A DNA stretch of 45,035 nt from a virus. Positions 3,258 through 44,611 of this stretch are shown here, piece after piece. The stretch lies in the IMG/VR virus record IMGVR_UViG_3300034980_000801, positions 1 to 45,035 of that record. One strand, written 5' to 3'. The translations under genes and the position numbers were made by a program. Every line of letters starts with the position of its first letter. The stretch's first letter is position 1. The notes beneath the pieces were generated by a model, which was not told the DNA's origin, ran no database searches, and worked only from the letters and a program-made list of their open reading frames with translations.

Positions 3258-5069
3258 CTAGGCAGGTGTTGATAAAAAGCGCAGCTTGAATTTTTCGATT
3301 TCGCCGAACAAGGTGCGCAACCCGTCTGACCTGTCACCTAAAACAATTGTGGTTAGGCCGGTAGGGATGATGCCTGACACGTCGGGTCCGTAAATGACCG
3401 CCTCACCACCATCGACTGACATTGAAAACCAGAAATTATTGGTTTCGATGTGGGCAGTGATTTCGATATGACATTTACCAGGAACAGGCAGACTGTAAAA
3501 AAGGGCTTGAGTTGATCCATTTGTTACATAGATACCAATAGTGTTGTTGCTGGCACGGAAAACCTGAATAGCGGGTGATGTAGTGCCGTCATCAAGTGAC
3601 ACAAGGCATTGCGAAGTCGATCCAATGCCCTCCGCAGTCCACCCGCTCACAGTGAATTCAAACGGGGCACCGTCTTGCCACCCGGCGACATTGGACAGCG
3701 GAATTTTCAGGGAGTCGGCGTCCTGAACAACACCTAATGCACCTGTCTTTATAATATCCTGAATGAACGATCCGGGCGCAAAACCTGCATTCCAAAGATA
3801 AATGCCGGAAATTCCGTCACCGGCGACACCGTTACCATCTCCAAATCTAATAAGGACGCCCTGCGTCGTAGAACTGCGCGTTGCCGTTATCCAGCACAGA
3901 TAAAAACCGAGGCCAATTGGCGTAATACCTGATGTTGATATACCGGAAACTTTAGTTCCCGTCGCCAAATCCCATTGCGCGGCAATTGATGATGAATTCC
4001 AACTTAGTGCTATATTGTCCAACTCTCCGGGCGCGGCTATTACATAGAACACGTAAGCATCATCAGCAATGTAAGGACTAGGTATCTGATATATGCCGTT
4101 CGATGTGCCAGCCACCGTCACCATTTTATCAGCGCTCAATTCACCATCAGGCCCGATAGCGGCATTGGGCGTAATCGTCACCCCTTGCTTCACCCAGTTG
4201 GATTGGGTGAAATCATTGGAATATTTGAAGCGGTTTTCGCACGATCCGCTAATCACTCCCCCCAACTTCTTCAACAAAACCGGGTCATGCTGAACCCGCA
4301 ATTCATCAATCCCAGCCCGCGCAATTTCGCCACTGGCATTCACATAACTTGCAAAGCTGTTACGGGTGAATTGCCACCCCGCAGGCAGGCCATTACGCAG
4401 GTCGATATCGATAATCGGTTCGGGGATGCCGCGATAGGAAACCGTTAAATCCTGTTGTGCAGGCTGATACCGGGCAAGCAGACATTCAAGATCATCGGCG
4501 CGGTTGATGGTGGCAAGGGCATCCTGCCCCAGCACGCCAGAACCACAACGAAACCAGGTGACACGCGGTTCTGGCACCACGACTTTCCACGAAAAGCGAT
4601 CCGCCCCGATGGTATCAAACCGCGTGACAGGGGCGGCACCGGATGAATCCCCACCGATTTCGCTTAGGCCGCAGACGAAGGGGCGGTTTTCAGTGATGGT
4701 TACGTCATAGCCAAGGCTTTTTGCCAGATCGATGAAATATTCCGGGCTTTGGCCGCCCTGCGCCCGATACCGGGTTAGCACGGCATTACGGCGATCTTCG
4801 ATATTGACATTCAGGGTTTGAAAGCAGCAATCGGGCAAGCCGACTTGGGTTTCGTGATCTGCCAGCATTTCAGATGCGCGGGCCGGTTGGATTTCGGCAA
4901 CCAGCCGTTCGGCGGCAAGGTCAACATCCAGCCAGGTTTGCGCTTTGGCGCGCAAAAGTTCGCGGCCAGTGCCGTCGTAATCCCGAAACCCCTGCCAAAA
5001 GGCACCGGGCGGCAGGGCCGATGCCGCTGTTTCGGCATAGGCTTCCAGCCGGTCATCATAATCAGTCAT
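3258..5069 (-). CDS. Mu gp48-like (YmfQ/DUF2313) baseplate protein fused to a C-terminal spike/LamG-like domain
   Basis: The 603-residue product begins with a YmfQ/Mu gp48-like domain (about residues 1-205). This includes the helical YRAQGGQSPEYFIDLAKSLGY segment and ends at CLLARYQPAQQDLTVSY. Family members are usually close to 200 residues, so the remaining 400 are an addition. The extra part has a fibre-like repeat region (about 210-300: DLRNGLPAGWQFTRNS, ENRFKYSNDFTQSNW), as seen in phage head-spike fibre domains. It is followed by a beta-rich LamG/concanavalin-like segment to the end. The start overlaps the baseplate J stop by eight bases. The likely role is to cap the baseplate and, through the added domain, bind a surface ligand. 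Confidence 0.8.
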   Translation of the reverse strand: MTDYDDRLEAYAETAASALPPGAFWQGFRDYDGTGRELLRAKAQTWLDVDLAAERLVAEIQPARASEMLADHETQVGLPDCCFQTLNVNIEDRRNAVLTRYRAQGGQSPEYFIDLAKSLGYDVTITENRPFVCGLSEIGGDSSGAAPVTRFDTIGADRFSWKVVVPEPRVTWFRCGSGVLGQDALATINRADDLECLLARYQPAQQDLTVSYRGIPEPIIDIDLRNGLPAGWQFTRNSFASYVNASGEIARAGIDELRVQHDPVLLKKLGGVISGSCENRFKYSNDFTQSNWVKQGVTITPNAAIGPDGELSADKMVTVAGTSNGIYQIPSPYIADDAYVFYVIAAPGELDNIALSWNSSSIAAQWDLATGTKVSGISTSGITPIGLGFYLCWITATRSSTTQGVLIRFGDGNGVAGDGISGIYLWNAGFAPGSFIQDIIKTGALGVVQDADSLKIPLSNVAGWQDGAPFEFTVSGWTAEGIGSTSQCLVSLDDGTTSPAIQVFRASNNTIGIYVTNGSTQALFYSLPVPGKCHIEITAHIETNNFWFSMSVDGGEAVIYGPDVSGIIPTGLTTIVLGDRSDGLRTLFGEIEKFKLRFLSTPA

Positions 5070-28203: not shown

Positions 28204-29055
28204 TCATCGACCGGCCCCTTTTGCATGGGCCTTGCCGCCCACAATCAGGTGCAACCGCCCCTGCCCGGTTTGGTTGTCGTTATGCTCACGCACCAGAAAA
28301 GACCCGGACTGGCGCATATAGTCATTGGCAAAATCACGCGGGAACAGCCAGACACCGGAATGCGGGCAGCGCCGCACCGCAACCGGCGGACGCGATTGCA
28401 GGGCGCGCGCCCGTAAACGGCAACCAATCTTGCGATTTAAGGCCGACCGGCCCTTTTGCACCGCATTGTATTCAAGCAGCAATTCCCGAACGGACACATA
28501 TTCCAAAGCCGCAACGCGGGCGGACGCGCCAAGCATCAGGTTGCCAACCTGGTCAGCCAGCGCCAACGTCGCGGCACTTTGTTCCTGGCGCATGCCCTCT
28601 AATCGGGTTTCCCATTGCGTCATACGGTGTTCAATGGCCGTAACCTTTTTGACCACCGTTTTTACGATACCAAGCGCACGAACCAGTTCTTCGGGAATGG
28701 CACGCAATGTGTTTTCCATCGCATTAAACTGCGCGATATAGGATTGCTTCAGTAGTGCGGCCTGTTTGCCGGTAAATCCGGTTACGAGAAACCAAAAACC
28801 GTCTTTGGTCATGTCGAAAGCACGAGCTTGCTGCGTACCGCCCTTGCCGTTTTCATATTCAATGATTACTGGCTGAAAATTCAGCCGGTAAAAATCTTCG
28901 TCGCATTCCAGGTTATCGATGGACTGCAATACATTCTTATGCTGCTTGCCAAAATAAGCCGCCACATCACGGCTATTGGTTTTAATCGCCCCACCCTTCT
29001 CGAACACAACGGGCAGAACAGAATTATCGTTGCTTACATTCAAGGCACGTTTCAT
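28204..29055 (-). CDS. rha: Phage regulatory protein Rha family
   Basis: The 283-residue protein begins with the Rha domain: KTNSRDVAAYFGKQHKNVLQ at about residues 26-45, then MTKDGFWFLVTGFTGKQAALL and KQSYIAQFNAME. This is a winged-helix-like DNA-binding module seen in many prophage regulators. The C-terminal 110 residues are a separate basic region with SVRELLLEYNAVQKGRSALN and RCPHSGVWLFPRDFANDYMR, probably a second DNA-binding or antirepressor-type domain. The gene belongs to the minus-strand early series but stands apart, flanked by plus-strand cargo on both sides. A role in switching or antirepression is likely; the target is unknown. Confidence 0.85.
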   Translation of the reverse strand: MKRALNVSNDNSVLPVVFEKGGAIKTNSRDVAAYFGKQHKNVLQSIDNLECDEDFYRLNFQPVIIEYENGKGGTQQARAFDMTKDGFWFLVTGFTGKQAALLKQSYIAQFNAMENTLRAIPEELVRALGIVKTVVKKVTAIEHRMTQWETRLEGMRQEQSAATLALADQVGNLMLGASARVAALEYVSVRELLLEYNAVQKGRSALNRKIGCRLRARALQSRPPVAVRRCPHSGVWLFPRDFANDYMRQSGSFLVREHNDNQTGQGRLHLIVGGKAHAKGAGR

Positions 29056-29483: not shown

Positions 29484-29513
29484 GGCGCAACAGGACGGCC
29501 ATCCTGTTGCGCC
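29484..29513 (+). other. Perfect 12-bp hairpin upstream of the SLATT-like gene
   Basis: GGCGCAACAGGA and TCCTGTTGCGCC form a perfect stem with a six-base loop. There is no long T-run afterwards, only TTCCCCC, so it is not a classical terminator. It may stabilise or attenuate the plus-strand transcript 54 bases before the start of the SLATT-like gene. Confidence 0.55.
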
Positions 29514-29566
29514 TTCCCCCTACCAACCTGAGCTTGATAGGAGAAATTTTCTATGAGGATAGCTCG

Positions 29567-30166
29567 ATGGAACAGCCCACCAAGTCGCCCGACCCCAACA
29601 CCAATGAAACCGCCATCAACGAACCCGGGATCAACAGTGAACCCGAACCGGCCACCGACATCCCCTCCTCGCCCTCCGAAGAGGTAGATGACGGTGGAAA
29701 ATACAAGCTTAGTTTCGAGATAGATGTATCTCGGCGCTACAACCTGCACATGGCGCGGAAACTTCGTGATTTTGGACGACTGACCAAACTCTTCACGATT
29801 ATGGGTGGCAGTGCGGCTTTTGTTAGCTTTCTGAACCAAACAGAAACAATCACGCCTTGGCTCGGACTTGCAGGAACACTTTCCCTGACTTTTGCCACAG
29901 CACTTGACATAGTATACGGCTTCGAACCTGCGTCTTTTCAACACCGACAGCTTGCCAAGGAATACACAACCCTGTTGAGACAGTTGAATGCTGGTGCAAG
30001 CGTGGAAACCGTTACAGATAATTATTACGCAATTGAAGCCAATGAAGATGCTCCACAGAAACGGATACTGAACTCTGCCCATAATGAAACTTTGAAAAAT
30101 AGAGGCTTCGTCGACAAGGAGAAAGAGGAGTTTTCCGCAGACAAAAGCTGGTGGGTGTTTTGGTAA
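29567..30166 (+). CDS. SLATT-like two-TM membrane protein (candidate defence/exclusion effector)
   Basis: This 199-residue protein has a disordered Pro/Glu/Asn-rich N-terminus (residues 1-45) and an amphipathic helix with RRYNLHMARKLRDFGRLTKL. Two membrane segments follow (about 74-90 and 97-117), then a helical tail. The tail shows the SLATT-type pattern: AKEYTTLLRQL, then YAIEANEDAPQKRI and SAHNETLKNRG. SLATT proteins are predicted pore-forming effectors in conflict systems, usually next to a nucleotide-sensing or nuclease partner. Here it stands alone in a prophage. ATG 29567 has AGGA seven bases upstream. The last residues are WWVFW, which is unusual. The SLATT assignment is by pattern and would need a profile test. 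Confidence 0.65.
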   Translation: MEQPTKSPDPNTNETAINEPGINSEPEPATDIPSSPSEEVDDGGKYKLSFEIDVSRRYNLHMARKLRDFGRLTKLFTIMGGSAAFVSFLNQTETITPWLGLAGTLSLTFATALDIVYGFEPASFQHRQLAKEYTTLLRQLNAGASVETVTDNYYAIEANEDAPQKRILNSAHNETLKNRGFVDKEKEEFSADKSWWVFW

Positions 30167-30381: not shown

Positions 30382-31023
30382 ATGGCGCAGGACAGAAAAC
30401 AGCGGGGAAATCTGGTGGATAAACAGAACAAATGGTTGAATTCCATTGTCATTAGCGGGGTTGCTGTAATCGCGTTTATGGTTGGAGCCCTGTACGGCAA
30501 GCAATTTAACAATCTGCAATGGGAAACTCTGCTTGCCGGGACACTGGGGCTGATAGGCGGAACATTTGCTTGGTTCTCCGCTCAATCGCAAATCAAAGCA
30601 AACAAAGCCCAATGGGAGGAAAGCATAAAAAGAGAAACAGAATTGATAAATTCCCAATTCTATGAGGAAACAGTAAATACCTGCGGCTTGATCCTCGCGA
30701 TAAAGAAATATTTTAACCCCGTAACAGGGGATTATAATACGTACTTGATGCACGACATAAAAAAAGTTAATCAATCCTTTGAGATAGTAGAAGTTCCCAT
30801 CGCGCCAACAACGATTGAAAAAGAAATAATTGATAAATATATTCCGCTTAGGAATACGTTCAAACTGTTCAAGGTATTGCTTGATAAAATAGTAGTAGAA
30901 ATACCCAACGACCTTACACCCGTTCCGAAACAAGTTATTCAAGGCATTAAAATAAATTTCGAAAATTTGGAGGATAGCGCCAGCACTCTCCGAGAAAGCT
31001 GCCGCCAAAAGATACAAGATTAA
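30382..31023 (+). CDS. Two-TM protein with coiled coil and C-terminal soluble domain (cargo gene)
   Basis: The 213-residue product has a basic N-terminus, two membrane segments (about residues 20-38 and 48-66) and a charged helix directly after (FSAQSQIKANKAQWEESIKR). A mostly helical C-terminal region of about 115 residues follows. The segment WETLLAGTLGLIGGTFAWFS matches a pattern that recurs in many alphaproteobacterial membrane proteins of unknown function, and again in the protein at 33468-34307. The gene is AT-rich compared with its neighbours, ends nine bases from the opposing primase stop, and starts within the right copy of the 16-bp repeat region. It is probably a cargo gene; function is unknown. 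Confidence 0.7.
   Translation: MAQDRKQRGNLVDKQNKWLNSIVISGVAVIAFMVGALYGKQFNNLQWETLLAGTLGLIGGTFAWFSAQSQIKANKAQWEESIKRETELINSQFYEETVNTCGLILAIKKYFNPVTGDYNTYLMHDIKKVNQSFEIVEVPIAPTTIEKEIIDKYIPLRNTFKLFKVLLDKIVVEIPNDLTPVPKQVIQGIKINFENLEDSASTLRESCRQKIQD
30394..30409 (+). repeat. 16-bp direct repeat, right copy
   Basis: Exact copy of the 16-mer at 29103-29118. It lies inside the first codons of the two-TM gene (residues about 5-10), so recombination between copies would delete the SLATT-like segment and shift the upstream sequence of this gene. Confidence 0.7.
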
Positions 31024-32272: not shown

Positions 32273-32875
32273 ATGCGAGCTACGGAAGTAATAGATCATG
32301 ACTGCCCTCATTGCGGCATTAAAATCGCTGCATTTACACGCAAAGGAGCTTACGAATATCAAGTTAAGGTAGGACCTTTGATCCAAAATGTTGAATTTAG
32401 ATGCACACACCTGTATATTTGCCCTAAATGCAGCGAAGGAATTGTTGCGAGTTCTCTTGCTGGTGAGATTGAACAAATTTACCCTGAGATTAAGCGCGCT
32501 ATACCGGCTCACCTTCCACCGAACGTTGAACGGTATTACAAACAAGGCTTGGATAACCTTGGTCAAAACCCAGATGCCGCTGGCATGATGTTCCGCAAGG
32601 CCCTTGAAATCGGTCTGGGGCAGAAATTCGCCAGTTATAAAGGGAGTTTTAATGAGGTTATTAAAAAAGCAGCCGCGAACAACGAAATCACCAAAGACAT
32701 TTCTGATTGGGCACATCACATCAGAAAATCCGGAAACAGTGCAACGCACGAAGACGAATACACTCCAGAACAAGCCGAAGAAATGAAGCATTTCACCGAA
32801 CTGGTTCTGACCTATATTTTCACTCTGCCGGAAAAAATCGCGACACATAAAACCAACGATAAACAGGCAGAATAG
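32273..32875 (+). CDS. DUF4145 protein with N-terminal zinc ribbon (cargo gene)
   Basis: This 200-residue protein has a zinc ribbon (C11-P-H-C14 and C50-P-K-C53) followed by the DUF4145 domain from about residue 68 (IYPEIKRAIPAHLPPNVERY). Also visible are GMMFRKALEIGL and the signature HHIRKSGNSATHEDEY, with R151 and H159. The end is FTELVLTYIFTLPEKIA. DUF4145 is HEPN-like in its R/H pattern and occurs beside restriction and other defence genes, or alone in mobile elements. ATG 32273 is preceded by GTGAGG. The 97-base gap to the divergent primase gene would hold its promoter. A nuclease or sensor role is inferred. Confidence 0.78.
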   Translation: MRATEVIDHDCPHCGIKIAAFTRKGAYEYQVKVGPLIQNVEFRCTHLYICPKCSEGIVASSLAGEIEQIYPEIKRAIPAHLPPNVERYYKQGLDNLGQNPDAAGMMFRKALEIGLGQKFASYKGSFNEVIKKAAANNEITKDISDWAHHIRKSGNSATHEDEYTPEQAEEMKHFTELVLTYIFTLPEKIATHKTNDKQAE

Positions 32876-33407: not shown

Positions 33408-33436
33408 TTGCCAGAACCGGCGTCGCAAGGCATTAT
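33408..33436 (+). promoter_or_regulatory. Promoter of the second two-TM cargo gene
   Basis: TTGCCA (33408-33413), 17 bases, then CATTAT (33431-33436). The -10 hexamer is the same as that of the hicAB promoter. It lies 32 bases before the ATG and within 30 bases of the divergent minus-strand gene, giving the cargo gene its own transcription start. Confidence 0.62.
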
Positions 33437-33467
33437 TACAAGACCCTGTAATCACGGAGAAAATCAG

Positions 33468-34307
33468 ATGAGTAACACGAACAATTCCAGGGAAAAGTTG
33501 CGGTTCCTGGACATCGCTATTGTTGCCTCGATCTCCGCCATTATTGGGTCTGTCATAACAACGGTCATGATATTTGGTTTTGGATTCATTAAACCCAGCC
33601 GGCAACCGGTCGTTTTTGACACGTTGATAGAAACGATCAAAAACTGGCAAACTTTGATTGGGGCGGTATTGGCGTTGATTGCTGCTTGCTTTACAGTTTT
33701 CGTCATACACAGGCAAACGACAGAAGCACGTAAGACGGCGCTGGAACTTGCACGCGAACATCAAAAAGGAATCGAACGAAAAGCATTGATTTCTCTTCCG
33801 ACAGCTCTTGCACATATATCTGAGTGCCTTGAAGCGCAATGGCAAGAGATGGCACAGATGCATAAGGAGATTATCAAAGGCGAAGCGCTCGTCCTCAAAG
33901 AAGGTCGTATTAAAAGCCCGTCCGCAGACGCAATAATAACATTGGCAGAAATCTGCGAGCATCCTTCTGATGATAATATTGCAGATTACTGTCTTGGGAT
34001 TTCCCGTAGATTTCAATATCACAACAGCCGGATTAATAGCTATATTAATGAAAATAAAGAAAATAAAATAAATGAAATTCATATATTTAGCCTCTCTAGA
34101 ACTATCGTGGAAATTAAATGTCTCTTAAGTAAACTTTATGACTACAACGACAAAAATTTTTCAGCAGAAATGGATAAAAAAGAACTATTATCTGCATTAA
34201 GATCAATTTCATCAGACAGTAATACTTATTGTTTCCGAGAACGTATTTCCCAAGAAATTGAAACTAATATAAATGGCGTATACCGCTATAGCTTGAGCGA
34301 AGGTTAA
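33468..34307 (+). CDS. Two-TM protein with C-terminal helical domain (cargo gene, same layout as 30382-31023)
   Basis: The 279-residue product has two membrane segments (about residues 14-40 and 61-81). A long charged helix follows (HRQTTEARKTALELAREHQK), then a soluble helical domain. The second membrane segment and following helix, NWQTLIGAVLALIAACFTV, match the WETLLAGTLGLIGG pattern of the protein at 30382-31023, so both belong to one broad architecture. The start has GGAG eight bases upstream, and its own promoter is visible. The last 300 bases are strikingly AT-rich, unlike the phage genes on either side, which suggests recent transfer. Function unknown; superinfection exclusion is a reasonable hypothesis. 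Confidence 0.7.
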   Translation: MSNTNNSREKLRFLDIAIVASISAIIGSVITTVMIFGFGFIKPSRQPVVFDTLIETIKNWQTLIGAVLALIAACFTVFVIHRQTTEARKTALELAREHQKGIERKALISLPTALAHISECLEAQWQEMAQMHKEIIKGEALVLKEGRIKSPSADAIITLAEICEHPSDDNIADYCLGISRRFQYHNSRINSYINENKENKINEIHIFSLSRTIVEIKCLLSKLYDYNDKNFSAEMDKKELLSALRSISSDSNTYCFRERISQEIETNINGVYRYSLSEG

Positions 34308-34704: not shown

Positions 34705-34787
34705 GGCTATCAAACTTCCCTGTTTTGGGAGTTGCCGCCCCGCAGCCCGAAGGCCATAAATGCAGGGACAGCAACGGAGCAACGACC

Positions 34788-34985
34788 ATGAACGACAGAA
34801 AAAACCGAATAGACGCCCTGAAAGCCGCAACCACCGAGTTTCGCGCAGCACTGGAAGCCTTGCAAAACAGCAGCGACCCCCAGGAAAAAGCCGAGGCCGA
34901 AGCGACCCTGAAACGGGCCGGATGGACGAAGGACGACAAGGGCGTGTTTACGCCGCCTTCGCATCCGGCAAAGTCTGATCGTTAA
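34788..34985 (+). CDS. Small plus-strand protein between cro and the CII-like gene
   Basis: A 65-residue frame starts at MNDRKNRIDALKAATTEF, with GGAG nine bases upstream. It encodes a highly charged helical protein (EALQNSSDPQEKAEAEATLK) ending KDDKGVFTPPSHPAK. It lies on the strand opposite to cro and the CII-like gene and overlaps the end of cro convergently by 38 bases. The composition is protein-like, and the frame is much better than its shadows. No family is recognised. Confidence 0.5.
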   Translation: MNDRKNRIDALKAATTEFRAALEALQNSSDPQEKAEAEATLKRAGWTKDDKGVFTPPSHPAKSDR

Positions 34986-35178
34986 CCCCCTGCGTAAATT
35001 CAACGGGGATTACGGCTTCAAATTTACGAATGGTGTTTGCGGTTGGGTTCCATTCAGGGCGGTCCATTTTACGGATAGCAGCTTCGTTTACACCCGCCAA
35101 AGCCGCCAACCGGTAAATCGCATACCCCTTGTGTTGCCGCCACGCCCGAATACGGTTCAGATTTGCATCAATCGACAT
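34948..35178 (-). CDS. Cro-like XRE/HTH regulator
   Basis: The 76-residue protein has a helix-turn-helix, readable as IYRLAALAGVNEAAIRKMDR after RIRAWRQHKGY. A short C-terminal beta/helix part follows (TIRKFEAVIPVEF). It is divergent from the S24-type repressor gene with the operators between them, the standard arrangement of cro. ATG 35178 is preferred over one 10 codons earlier because the HTH family begins close to it. It would repress the repressor gene during lytic growth. Confidence 0.82.
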   Translation of the reverse strand: MSIDANLNRIRAWRQHKGYAIYRLAALAGVNEAAIRKMDRPEWNPTANTIRKFEAVIPVEFTQGVNDQTLPDAKAA

Positions 35179-35290
35179 TGTTCTTTGCCTTCTTCCTTGA
35201 TGATGCACCGAACTTATTCGGCATTTATAACTACTGTCAACTGAAATTCGGCATATTTACCGATAAGCGGTCGGATTTTTTAGAGGCACA
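35179..35290. promoter_or_regulatory. Divergent operator/promoter region of the lysogeny switch
   Basis: TTCGGCAT occurs twice in direct orientation at 35217-35224 and 35247-35254, exactly 30 bases apart, about three helical turns. The second is part of CGGCATATTTACCG, an inverted pair. On the minus strand TTGACA (35240-35235), 17 bases and ATAAGT (35217-35212) make a plausible cro promoter. The first TTCGGCAT overlaps its -10. An AGAGG Shine-Dalgarno sequence precedes the repressor ATG. Confidence 0.62.
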
Positions 35291-36001
35291 ATGCCGAAAA
35301 CCAAAAACAAACGGGATTTTGGAGCAGAAAAAATGACCGACCCAATTGAGGAACAGCGCAAAAATTTCAATAAATGGCTAACGCGTACTGGCCAAAGCAC
35401 ACTCGCAGTCGCAAAGCAGGCCGGCATTAACGAATCAGCGTTACGGCACTACAAAAGCGGCAAAACCCGCGATCTGCGGATGGAAAACAAATTAAAAATT
35501 GCACAAACCCAGCAGACGACATTGGGAGAGATTTTTGGCGGCACAACCGGTCAGCCCCGTTCGCCAGCACCGGCAAGCATTGAAGCGTCATATGGCGTTC
35601 CGTCAGCCGAACCTCCTACTTTTGGAGGATCTGTTCCTTTGCTGGGTCGGGCGCAAAATGGGAAAATAATAGCCACTATGTTCCCGGTTGCCTGGGTTGG
35701 TGCCCCGGAATATATGCTCCTACCCGGCAATGTTTTTGCTGTTAGGGTGGCAAATAATCTCAACGCACCCCGGCTGAGAATTCGAGAGATAGTATTGTGC
35801 GCTCCCGATGAACCAATCGCCCCCAATGACGATGCAGCAGTAAGAGACACAGATGGCGAAATTCACCTGCTTCGGTGCATTGAAAACCGCCCTGAGCATG
35901 GCTTCACTGGATCCGTCTACAGCGATGAGGGCAATCAAATTACCATAGAAGCAGAAAGGATCATGAGCACAGCTCGCGTCGTTGCTATCTACCCCGCGTG
36001 A
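35291..36001 (+). CDS. CI-like repressor with HTH and degenerate S24 domain
   Basis: The 236-residue protein has an HTH at about residues 30-60 (LAVAKQAGINESALRHYKSG), a Pro/Ser/Ala-rich linker, and an S24-fold C-terminus from about 112. In S24 repressors the catalytic Ser lies in a G-D-S-M motif and the Lys in a later V-K-R. Here the matching places read NNLN (residues 155-158) and LLRC (193-196), so both catalytic residues are missing. The remainder of the fold (LRIREIVLCAPDEPI, then RVVAIYPA at the end) is kept. It probably dimerises and represses the lytic promoters but cannot self-cleave. ATG 35291 has AGAGG six bases upstream. Confidence 0.83.
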   Translation: MPKTKNKRDFGAEKMTDPIEEQRKNFNKWLTRTGQSTLAVAKQAGINESALRHYKSGKTRDLRMENKLKIAQTQQTTLGEIFGGTTGQPRSPAPASIEASYGVPSAEPPTFGGSVPLLGRAQNGKIIATMFPVAWVGAPEYMLLPGNVFAVRVANNLNAPRLRIREIVLCAPDEPIAPNDDAAVRDTDGEIHLLRCIENRPEHGFTGSVYSDEGNQITIEAERIMSTARVVAIYPA

Positions 36002-36183
36002 TTCTTTTGCAGAACGCAAGCAGGCTCGATTCTTCGAGCAACACCCGGCCTACGCAGAAAATCCGGAACGAAATCCATAAAACATGAATAAAGAATCGTT
36101 ATTTTAAACGAATAATACGTTGACAACTACGAATTATAACGACAACCTGTGCGGAATAACAACCCGTATAGGTGCACTTTCTC
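36002..36183 (+). promoter_or_regulatory. Intergenic region before the antirepressor with palindromes
   Basis: A perfect hairpin GCTCGA-TTCT-TCGAGC lies at 36024-36039, without a T-run. TCGTT-ATTTTA-AACGA (36096-36111) is an inverted repeat in AT-rich sequence and could be an operator. TTGACA occurs at 36120-36125, but no good -10 is found 17 bases on. The region probably contains the promoter of the rightward early operon. Confidence 0.5.
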
Positions 36184-36966
36184 ATGGCAACAACATTACA
36201 AGCGCTCAATGATAATTCTTGCGCCGCATTGCTATATAGCGGCACACCAATTCGCATTGATGACGACAAACTTAACCTAACAGATATGTGGCGGGCAGCG
36301 GGAGCCGATCCATCTCGCCGCCCCTACGAATGGTCCCGCAAAGAGGGCGGGCCATTCATTGAAGCGGTCACTTTGTCTTTAAATACGCCCGTCGAGCGTA
36401 TTTACATTGCAGGCCGAGGCAAAGGAGGGAGCACCCTCGCCCACTGGCAGATCGGCCTCGCTTACGCCAAGTACCTGTCACCGGAATTCCACATGTGGTG
36501 CAACACCGTCGTTCGCGACCGAATGCAAGGCACCCCCACCACGGCGGCAAATGACCATCATCACCTGAATGACCCCAACGCTCTGCGTGGTCTGCTTTTA
36601 ACCTACACCGGAAAGGTGTTGGAACTTGAAAGCAGGCTGGAACAGGCGCAGCCGAAACTTGACAGTTTTGAACGCATCGCCCAGGCCGATGGCTCGATGT
36701 GCATTACCGACGCGGCCAAGGCATTACAAATGCGCCCCAAGGACCTGTTTGACTGGATGGCGCAGAATGGCTGGACCTACAAGCGGCCCGGTACGGCGCA
36801 CTGGCTGGGTTATCAATCCAAAACAACATCCGGCCTGCTTGAACACAAGACAACGATGGTTTGGCGGTCTGACGGGTCGGAAAAGATTACCGAACAGGTT
36901 CGGATTACGGCCAAAGGCCTAACGCGACTGGCAACGCTTATAAAGCCGGCATTCCACACAGACTGA
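36184..36966 (+). CDS. KilA-N / ANT-type phage antirepressor
   Basis: The 260-residue protein combines an N-terminal KilA-N domain (NLTDMWRAAGADPSRRPYEW, then GGSTLAHWQIGLAYAKYLSP and FHMWCNTVVRD) with a C-terminal ANT/KilAC domain. The latter shows AQADGSMCITDAAKALQMRP, LFDWMAQNGWTYKRPG and ITAKGLTRLATLIKPAF. Such proteins bind and inactivate phage repressors, as Ant does in P22. This fits the missing self-cleavage of the repressor directly upstream. ATG 36184 is taken as the start; an in-frame GTG at 36172 is possible. Confidence 0.87.
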   Translation: MATTLQALNDNSCAALLYSGTPIRIDDDKLNLTDMWRAAGADPSRRPYEWSRKEGGPFIEAVTLSLNTPVERIYIAGRGKGGSTLAHWQIGLAYAKYLSPEFHMWCNTVVRDRMQGTPTTAANDHHHLNDPNALRGLLLTYTGKVLELESRLEQAQPKLDSFERIAQADGSMCITDAAKALQMRPKDLFDWMAQNGWTYKRPGTAHWLGYQSKTTSGLLEHKTTMVWRSDGSEKITEQVRITAKGLTRLATLIKPAFHTD

Positions 36967-43175: not shown

Positions 43176-43465
43176 AAAAGCTTGAAAAATTCGTTCCAGA
43201 CCCCCGGTACTGGACTGATTGGCAACTGGCGCACCGCCTCGGCTGTACCCCAAATACTATGCATCGGAAAATAGCCAAGCTTGACGGGTTTCCCAAAAAA
43301 GACCCAGAATTCGGCTGGGATAGTATCGCAATCGAAATTTATTTTAATCGCCGGTCTGGGTTAACGCTTGGCAACAATGTCGCAAACAAAGACGAACATC
43401 AGCAATGGGACGATCTGTTAAATGGTTCTCATCAGCATACCATACGTCAAGGCGTTCACAGTTAA
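43172..43465 (+). CDS. Small HTH protein, probable excisionase
   Basis: The 97-residue protein lies directly before the integrase gene and overlaps it by 44 bases. That is the usual place of xis. It contains an HTH-like part (YWTDWQLAHRLGCTPNTMHR) followed by KIAKLDGFPKKDPEFGWDS, the AlpA/excisionase-style wing. The last 35 residues are polar. Its size and position support an excision or directionality factor; it is not a proven Xis family member. Confidence 0.68.
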   Translation: MKKLEKFVPDPRYWTDWQLAHRLGCTPNTMHRKIAKLDGFPKKDPEFGWDSIAIEIYFNRRSGLTLGNNVANKDEHQQWDDLLNGSHQHTIRQGVHS

Positions 43466-44441
43466 GGGCAAGGTTTACGCCTATTACCGACGCAATGGAC
43501 AGAAAATCCGCATCAAAGGCGACATTGGATCTGATGCGTGGCGGGCCGAATATGAACGGATACACAGCGAGTTTCAAAGCGGTGCCGACTCCGGCCCTGC
43601 CATCAAATCAGGCTCCTATGACGATCTGATTGCAAAATACAAGGCCGGGCCTCTTTTCAAGCAATTGGCACCACGAACAAAAAAAGAATATGCCCGGCAT
43701 CTTGATACGATTGGCGATATTGCGGGAAAGATGGATGTCGCATCCACACCCCGTCAATTCGTAACCATGATGCGTGACCGCTTTCATGAAACACCAAGAA
43801 CAGCAAACGCCATCATTTCTACGCTGCGATTGATCCTGAACTATGCAATCGACCTTGGCTGGATGACGCATAATCCCGCAGCACGGCCGCGTCGATTAAA
43901 AGAGGGCGATGGATATCGTGCATGGGAAGAAAGCGAGATAGATCAGTTTCGGGCGACATGGCCGATGGGCACAATTCAACGAGTTGCATTTGAACTGATT
44001 CTCTACACCGGCCAGCGCGCATCTGATGTGCGTCAAATGGTACGCGGCCACATAAAAAAAGGCTGGATTTCGGTTAAGCAGCAAAAAACTGGCGAGCGGG
44101 TTGAAATCCCGCTGTCAAACATTTTGCAGGATGCTTTATCTGCATGGCTGCCACAGCACGATCATTTGAACCTGATCCCTGCGCCCAAAGGCAAACCATA
44201 CGACGATACCGCTTTTTCAAAATTCATGCGCAAGGCCTACAAAAAGGCAAATCTCCCGGAAGATTTCAATTCCCATGGCGGGCGCTATGCCGCGGCAACT
44301 CGCTTGCAGGAGCTTGGCTTGAGTTGGGAAGAAATTGGCGGGATTACCGGACACGAAACCGCCCAAATGGTTCGTAAATATTCGGAACGCAAACGCTCTG
44401 CAAAACTGGCTATCGACAAGCTGAACATTATCGATAAATAG
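43422..44441 (+). CDS. int: Tyrosine site-specific integrase
   Basis: The 339-residue protein carries the full catalytic set: Arg199 in TGQRASD, Lys222 in VKQQKTG, H285-G-G-R288 in SHGGRYAAATR, His311 in GITGHET, and Tyr320 in RKYSERK. The N-terminal part (residues 1-70) has the AP2-like arm-binding pattern YVKAFTVKGKVYAYYRRNGQ, and residues 75-160 form the core-binding domain. It is the last phage gene before the tRNA, with two direct repeats after its stop that may be arm sites. It drives integration into tRNA-Arg. Confidence 0.93.
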   Translation: MVLISIPYVKAFTVKGKVYAYYRRNGQKIRIKGDIGSDAWRAEYERIHSEFQSGADSGPAIKSGSYDDLIAKYKAGPLFKQLAPRTKKEYARHLDTIGDIAGKMDVASTPRQFVTMMRDRFHETPRTANAIISTLRLILNYAIDLGWMTHNPAARPRRLKEGDGYRAWEESEIDQFRATWPMGTIQRVAFELILYTGQRASDVRQMVRGHIKKGWISVKQQKTGERVEIPLSNILQDALSAWLPQHDHLNLIPAPKGKPYDDTAFSKFMRKAYKKANLPEDFNSHGGRYAAATRLQELGLSWEEIGGITGHETAQMVRKYSERKRSAKLAIDKLNIIDK

Positions 44442-44534: not shown

Positions 44535-44611
44535 TGGCGATCCCTGCTGGACTCGAACCAGCAACCTACAGATTAGAAGTCTGTTGCTCTATCCAGTTGA
44601 GCTAAGGGACC
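44535..44611 (-). tRNA. tRNA-Arg (anticodon TCT), probable attachment site
   Basis: The minus strand folds as a complete tRNA. Acceptor GGTCCCT pairs with AGGGATC (one G-T), and the anticodon stem is ACAGA/TCTGT with loop CTTCTAA and anticodon TCT. A normal T arm (GCTGG-TTCGAGT-CCAGC) is followed by an encoded CCA at 44535-44537. Its 3' end faces the integrase gene 94 bases away. Phages of this type insert into the tRNA 3' half and restore it, so the attachment core is probably within about 44535-44565. The matching left copy is outside the window. Confidence 0.95.

Follow-up and report, generated by a model that had tools for sequence, protein, structure and literature searches.

The window, that is, the whole stretch of 45,035 nucleotides analyzed here, is a 45-kb virus record of a prophage from Thalassospira, a marine bacterium. 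Its terminase is of the lambda type and its tail genes are Mu-like. An integrase gene (43422-44441) adjoins a tRNA-Arg (TCT) gene on the minus strand (44535-44611), which is likely the attachment gene; a 12-bp attachment repeat is weakly suggested, and no attL partner of the tRNA was clearly found within the record. Four accessory genes (29507-30163, 30382-31020, 32273-32872 and 33408-34304), all on the plus strand, run opposite to the operon that surrounds them. The last two are missing from the sibling phage L006 between primase and the cro region, and 32273-32872 encodes a DUF4145 protein that weakly resembles PD-T7-4 defense (E 1e-5).

The region of interest comprises a Cro-like HTH gene on the minus strand (34948-35178; HTH_3 E 0.011, phrog_7241 E 4e-6), a divergent plus-strand gene for a CI-type repressor with an HTH and a catalytically dead S24-fold C-terminal domain (35333-36001) and, also on the plus strand, a gene for a KilA-N/ANT protein (36184-36966). 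The homologue of the Cro-like gene in L037/L041 begins at the same Met. The repressor ORF extends from 35291 to 36001 (236 aa, HTH at residues 34-82), and its start codon is probably 35333 (Met15) rather than 35291, because all six family members share Met15 and, in L002, the ATG further upstream lies in another reading frame. The nearest relatives of the repressor are found in IMG/VR records and one Thalassospira genome. The KilA-N/ANT protein, which probably starts at 36184, carries a KilA-N domain (about 36241-36525; E 3e-10, 40.2 bits vs a curated Pfam cut-off of 23.8) followed by an ANT domain (about 36631-36945; E 7e-31, 107.2 vs 25.3 bits). A sequence-only reading of this locus had described an antirepressor directly downstream of the repressor. 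Both domains are indeed present; the adjacency is looser than stated, since an intergenic region of ∼180 bp with its own promoter and predicted operators lies between the two genes. Hairpins directly 3' of the repressor stop part the two transcription units and, together with the conserved promoter block of KilA-N/ANT, leave no obvious co-transcription. The Rha protein that had been placed further left is encoded at 28204-29055 on the minus strand (PF09669, E 2e-24).

For the window repressor, no Peptidase_S24 match was obtained in Pfam at E ≤ 1, where HTH_26 alone was hit (9e-4), and no S24 match emerged from direct Pfam, NCBIfam or PDB sequence searches; profile-profile and fold comparisons were therefore needed. 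Three relatives match PF00717 (Peptidase_S24; best 1.8e-5), and the repressor profile aligns with catalytic S24 repressors (97.7%, E 1.8e-12). An AlphaFold model built on a 42-sequence alignment that includes catalytic S24 proteins reached a pLDDT of 83 and gave lambda CI, a lambda-186 hybrid and LexA as its best fold matches; the model from four family members alone had a pLDDT of 38. The repressor thus combines an N-terminal HTH with an S24-fold C-terminal domain, the arrangement of the LexA/CI fold.

In the 42-sequence alignment, the catalytic Ser and Lys columns each contain at least 90% of the expected residue. When the repressor is aligned with catalytic S24 repressors, G-D-S-M corresponds to N155-N156-L157-N158, so that the catalytic Ser is replaced by Leu157; the catalytic Lys is replaced by Leu194, and the scissile Ala-Gly by Asn123-Gly124. 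This confirms the earlier description of NNLN and LLRC at the positions of G-D-S-M and V-K-R. The protein thereby falls outside the self-cleaving type represented by lambda CI and LexA and has the makeup of the 186-type non-cleavable CI, an S24-fold repressor without the catalytic dyad. Across the family, the catalytic Lys is lost in seven of seven lineages (L, M or V instead), while L or D replaces the Ser in five and two keep it (L041, L161/L162), and Ala-Gly is kept in one (L036). With nucleophile, general base and scissile bond all lost, the Lys loss shared family-wide and the same losses seen in 186 CI, we infer, in agreement with the sequence-only reading, that the repressor should not self-cleave in response to RecA, a prediction from sequence that is well supported. 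No new relatives appeared in the viral contigs searched with L028 and L029. Separately, an S24-fold HTH protein outside this family (L160:4578-5420, minus strand) keeps the Ser (DSSM), has Gly at the Lys position (FFVGRL) and is apparently another non-cleaving S24 regulator.

Loss of every catalytic feature, in a domain that Pfam does not recognize, might be taken to indicate a decaying former S24 protein that has given up lysogeny control. This is hardly credible given that the ORF is intact in seven lineages, that conserved predicted operators adjoin it and that the C-terminal domain appears to be under strong purifying selection, with dN 0.21 and dS 3.0 between the window and L002 and dN 0.094 and dS 1.55 between L002 and L005. 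Such selection points to a working domain without protease chemistry.

Operators were sought by scanning all 3-nt dyads at 17 gaps in the six OR and OL regions of three lineages (window, L002 and L005). TCG-N10-CGA was the sole dyad found in all six regions (7 matches vs 0.62 expected; 0 of 60 shuffles), although the shuffles overstate the significance because the three lineages are related. The dyad was refined to a 16-bp motif, TCGK-N8-MCGA, with constant spacings of 30 bp at OR and 21 bp at OL. All exact dyad matches in 12.7 kb of L002 (2/2) and L005 (3/3) lie at OR or OL; the window by itself shows no enrichment of the exact motif (4 matches vs 2.9 expected). Two of the four predicted window operators contain one mismatch, namely OR1 (TCGGCATTTATAACTA, 35218-35233), which lies within the cro promoter spacer at the same position as in L002 and L005, and OL2 (ACGTTGACAACTACGA, 36117-36132), which spans the -35 of the KilA-N/ANT promoter. 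Their partners OR2 (TCGGCATATTTACCGA, 35248-35263) and OL1 (TCGTTATTTTAAACGA, 36096-36111) are separated from them by 30 bp and 21 bp, respectively, in all three lineages.

The -35 (TTGACA) of the leftward cro promoter PR is located at 35235-35240 on the minus strand, where TGTCAAC is invariant in four lineages. On the plus strand, the PL-like promoter of KilA-N/ANT (36120-36148) reads TTGACA-N17-CAACCT, with CACCCT in relatives; its -10 is unorthodox and tentatively assigned, and a consensus promoter scanner does not call PL. A leader hairpin (36145-36173, plus strand, -14.9 kcal/mol) would mask the KilA-N ribosome-binding site, and the leaders of L002, L005, L036 and L041 fold into equivalent hairpins. 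Alternatively, if CACCCT is the -10, the leader dyad would be a DNA site instead of an RNA hairpin. The PL leader with its hairpin over the Shine-Dalgarno is conserved in front of differing first genes (window 36120-36186, L002:6788, L005:6834, L036 about 9088 on the minus strand, L041:6494, L161:4389 and L162:4389), and among 29 Thalassospira genomes its exact pattern occurs at two prophage loci only.

The same predicted operators are thus found on the cro side and before the opposite early operon, as in lambda-like immunity. Since a dyad with conserved spacing is present both at cro/repressor and at the KilA-N/ANT -35, we infer that the repressor occupies these sites and probably silences its KilA-N/ANT neighbor in the lysogen. 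No operator or PL-like promoter was found when sought upstream of the window Rha gene. In sibling L006, visual reading revealed CACCAAA-type repeats both ahead of its catalytic repressor and ahead of the operon that leads to KilA-N/ANT, which on that reading follow the same regulatory logic as the window.

Comparison with relatives indicates how tightly the two genes are paired. DNA similarity to the siblings L006/L038 ends near 34720 and is fully back by about 36460, delimiting an exchanged immunity segment (approximately 34720-36460) whose right boundary lies inside the KilA-N/ANT gene. The segment swapped in the siblings holds a Cro/HTH module and a catalytic S24 repressor with GDSM and VVKR. 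The ANT half is nearly unchanged between window and siblings (dN 0.015). The idea that the KilA-N half tracks repressor type was rejected, as the divergence of this half is the same whether or not two phages share a repressor. The slot that follows the conserved promoter and leader holds KilA-N/ANT in the window, L002 and L005, a Rha gene in L161 and a beta-clamp-like gene in L162, L041 and L036. The beta-clamp-like genes (L036:8220-9059, L037:6528-7343, L162:4453 onward) weakly resemble the DNA polymerase III beta clamp (PF02767, E 6e-4). Rha of L161 is 65% identical to the window Rha, which lends some substance to the earlier remark on that gene. Given this variety, the first gene behind PL is an exchangeable early gene and not an obligate partner of the repressor.

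The sequence-only reading had gone further and proposed that induction proceeds through KilA-N/ANT. As a dedicated antirepressor that binds the neighboring repressor and triggers induction on some signal, the protein would fit its resemblance to phage Ant proteins (phrog_63 E 5e-29, also phrog_129 and phrog_130) and the repressor-KilA-N/ANT adjacency kept in three lineages. We regard this as quite improbable, because predicted repressor operators cover the KilA-N/ANT -35, the LexA box is absent from the record, the ANT half is kept beside a catalytic repressor in L006/L038, and KilA-N/ANT is absent from the whole genomes of G006 and G022, which carry dead-repressor relatives. The induction route is therefore unsupported as it was stated. 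On homology grounds, KilA-N/ANT may nevertheless have an antirepressor role.

A possible, if somewhat doubtful, reading is that KilA-N/ANT is a DNA-binding regulator of early genes or a replication-linked protein, and that the term antirepressor is merely an inherited annotation. That a beta-clamp-like or Rha gene can fill the slot suits a first early gene better than a fixed partner; likewise, the best full-length PHROG, phrog_129, is labeled transcriptional regulator, and P1 KilA, with 28% identity across 89% of the KilA-N/ANT protein, is encoded by a gene that a database record lists as non-essential for replication and lytic development. The strong conservation of the ANT domain (see above) and the fact that ANT proteins are the named antirepressors of several phages count against it.

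In some relatives, a small HTH-less protein is encoded between the dead repressor and PL (L036:9130-9486, minus strand; L037:7413-7934, minus strand, equal to L041:5932-6453, plus strand; L161 about 3782-4345 and L162 about 3902-4345, both plus strand). It represents an altered S24-like domain with T-T-A/C-M at the G-D-S-M position (hhalign against the S24 alignment 93%, E 3e-7) and, among 317 genomes of the order, is clearly matched in just the two Thalassospira genomes that carry those prophages. One speculative scheme, to which we attach little probability, is that this protein, as a dedicated partner, heterodimerizes with the repressor C-terminal domain, so that subunit exchange rather than cleavage would end lysogeny; in the window lineage, KilA-N/ANT or Rha would have taken over this role, each an interchangeable module placed after a shared leader under repressor control.

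A link to the SOS response was sought through the alphaproteobacterial LexA box, GTTCN7GTTC, whose presence ahead of lexA and recA was confirmed in six Thalassospira genomes. The exact pattern is absent from the 45-kb record, which may be incomplete at its left end; a LexA-controlled gene located there could be overlooked. Allowing one mismatch gave nothing convincing in the window, and with a matrix derived from Thalassospira host LexA sites the best window score was 10.1, vs 24.9-35.5 for the host sites. E. coli-type LexA boxes in the window were discarded as not meaningful. No Tum-like gene was found in the window, nor did the box and matrix searches yield a LexA-controlled antirepressor gene of the 186 type. 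The dead repressor and the absent LexA boxes together predict neither lambda-type self-cleavage nor a LexA-controlled antirepressor of the 186/N15/Gifsy type; with a RecA-proof repressor and no phage gene with a LexA box, we expect the prophage not to respond to SOS. The repressor might still respond to DNA damage without self-cleavage, for example, via an antirepressor supplied in trans under host LexA control or by a co-resident prophage. There is a precedent in FsoA of Fels-1, which inactivates the Gifsy-2 repressor (Lemire et al. 2011, PMC3121763), yet no candidate of this sort emerged, and we consider this unlikely here.

On balance, we favor as probable an SOS-blind switch that is lambda-shaped in layout and resembles 186 and P2 in logic, with a repressor that does not cut itself and KilA-N/ANT as a repressed early lytic gene. 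A repressor dimer or oligomer on the 16-bp dyads at OR would turn off the leftward cro-like lytic operon while allowing its own transcription; at OL, it would shut off the rightward early operon, of which KilA-N/ANT is the first gene. The layout would be that of lambda, with PR leading to cro, the repressor in between and PL leading to the opposite early operon, KilA-N/ANT taking the place of lambda N. RecA filaments would be unable to inactivate the repressor. KilA-N/ANT would be produced only once repression fails, or on infection ahead of repressor build-up, and would then function as a regulator early in the lytic course. Once derepression has occurred, or in the course of infection, it may serve as an antirepressor that commits the phage to lytic growth, or it may hit the repressors of other phages. 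Being under the repressor's own predicted operators, it cannot by itself start induction. The initiating signal would lie elsewhere, in spontaneous loss of repression, in another element's antirepressor acting in trans or in an unrecognized phage or host factor. Phage P2 escapes from repression spontaneously, and such escape may be enough as the first signal here.

Induction through the SOS response is assumed for many prophages. In this small family of alphaproteobacterial phages, the repressor sequence, the predicted operators and the absent LexA boxes all predict no induction by DNA damage. Because its siblings vary naturally, both in having a cleavable or a non-cleavable repressor and in the PL gene, the family offers a ready comparison set for studying what induces such phages and how KilA-N/ANT proteins function.

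Non-cleavable S24-fold repressors as such are already known. Like the window repressor, phage 186 CI is a CI-type protein with a lambda/LexA-fold C-terminal domain that lacks the catalytic Ser and Lys; aligned to the same profile, it has Gly and Arg at the two positions, and the lambda-186 hybrid repressor is among the top PDB folds for the window model, so this kind of repressor has a precedent. The ANT domain of the window protein is shared with P22 Ant and with P1 KilA and Ant. P22 has Ant alongside a cleavable repressor and controls ant through dedicated regulators, whereas the window KilA-N/ANT gene is apparently controlled by the main repressor. P22 Ant acts on several repressors (PMC3121763). 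Antirepressor precedents are provided by 186/Tum, N15/AntC and Gifsy, 186 being induced through LexA-controlled Tum (PMC3121763); in contrast to 186, the window showed no LexA box or Tum-like gene. In C. difficile phage phiCDKH01, an XRE repressor binds upstream of and controls putative antirepressor genes (PMC11172241), a main repressor over such genes as proposed here, in an unrelated host and with an unrelated sequence. Non-cleavable repressors are common to Fels-1/Gifsy and the window, but the Gifsy repressors are short (136 aa in LT2) and without an S24 signature altogether, and the Gifsy antirepressors are small, LexA-controlled and not of the KilA-N/ANT type. FsoA is encoded in an early operon that the Fels-1 repressor itself controls, and it apparently plays no part in Fels-1 induction (PMC3121763), which by analogy would make Salmonella FsoA a close precedent for the mechanism proposed for the window.
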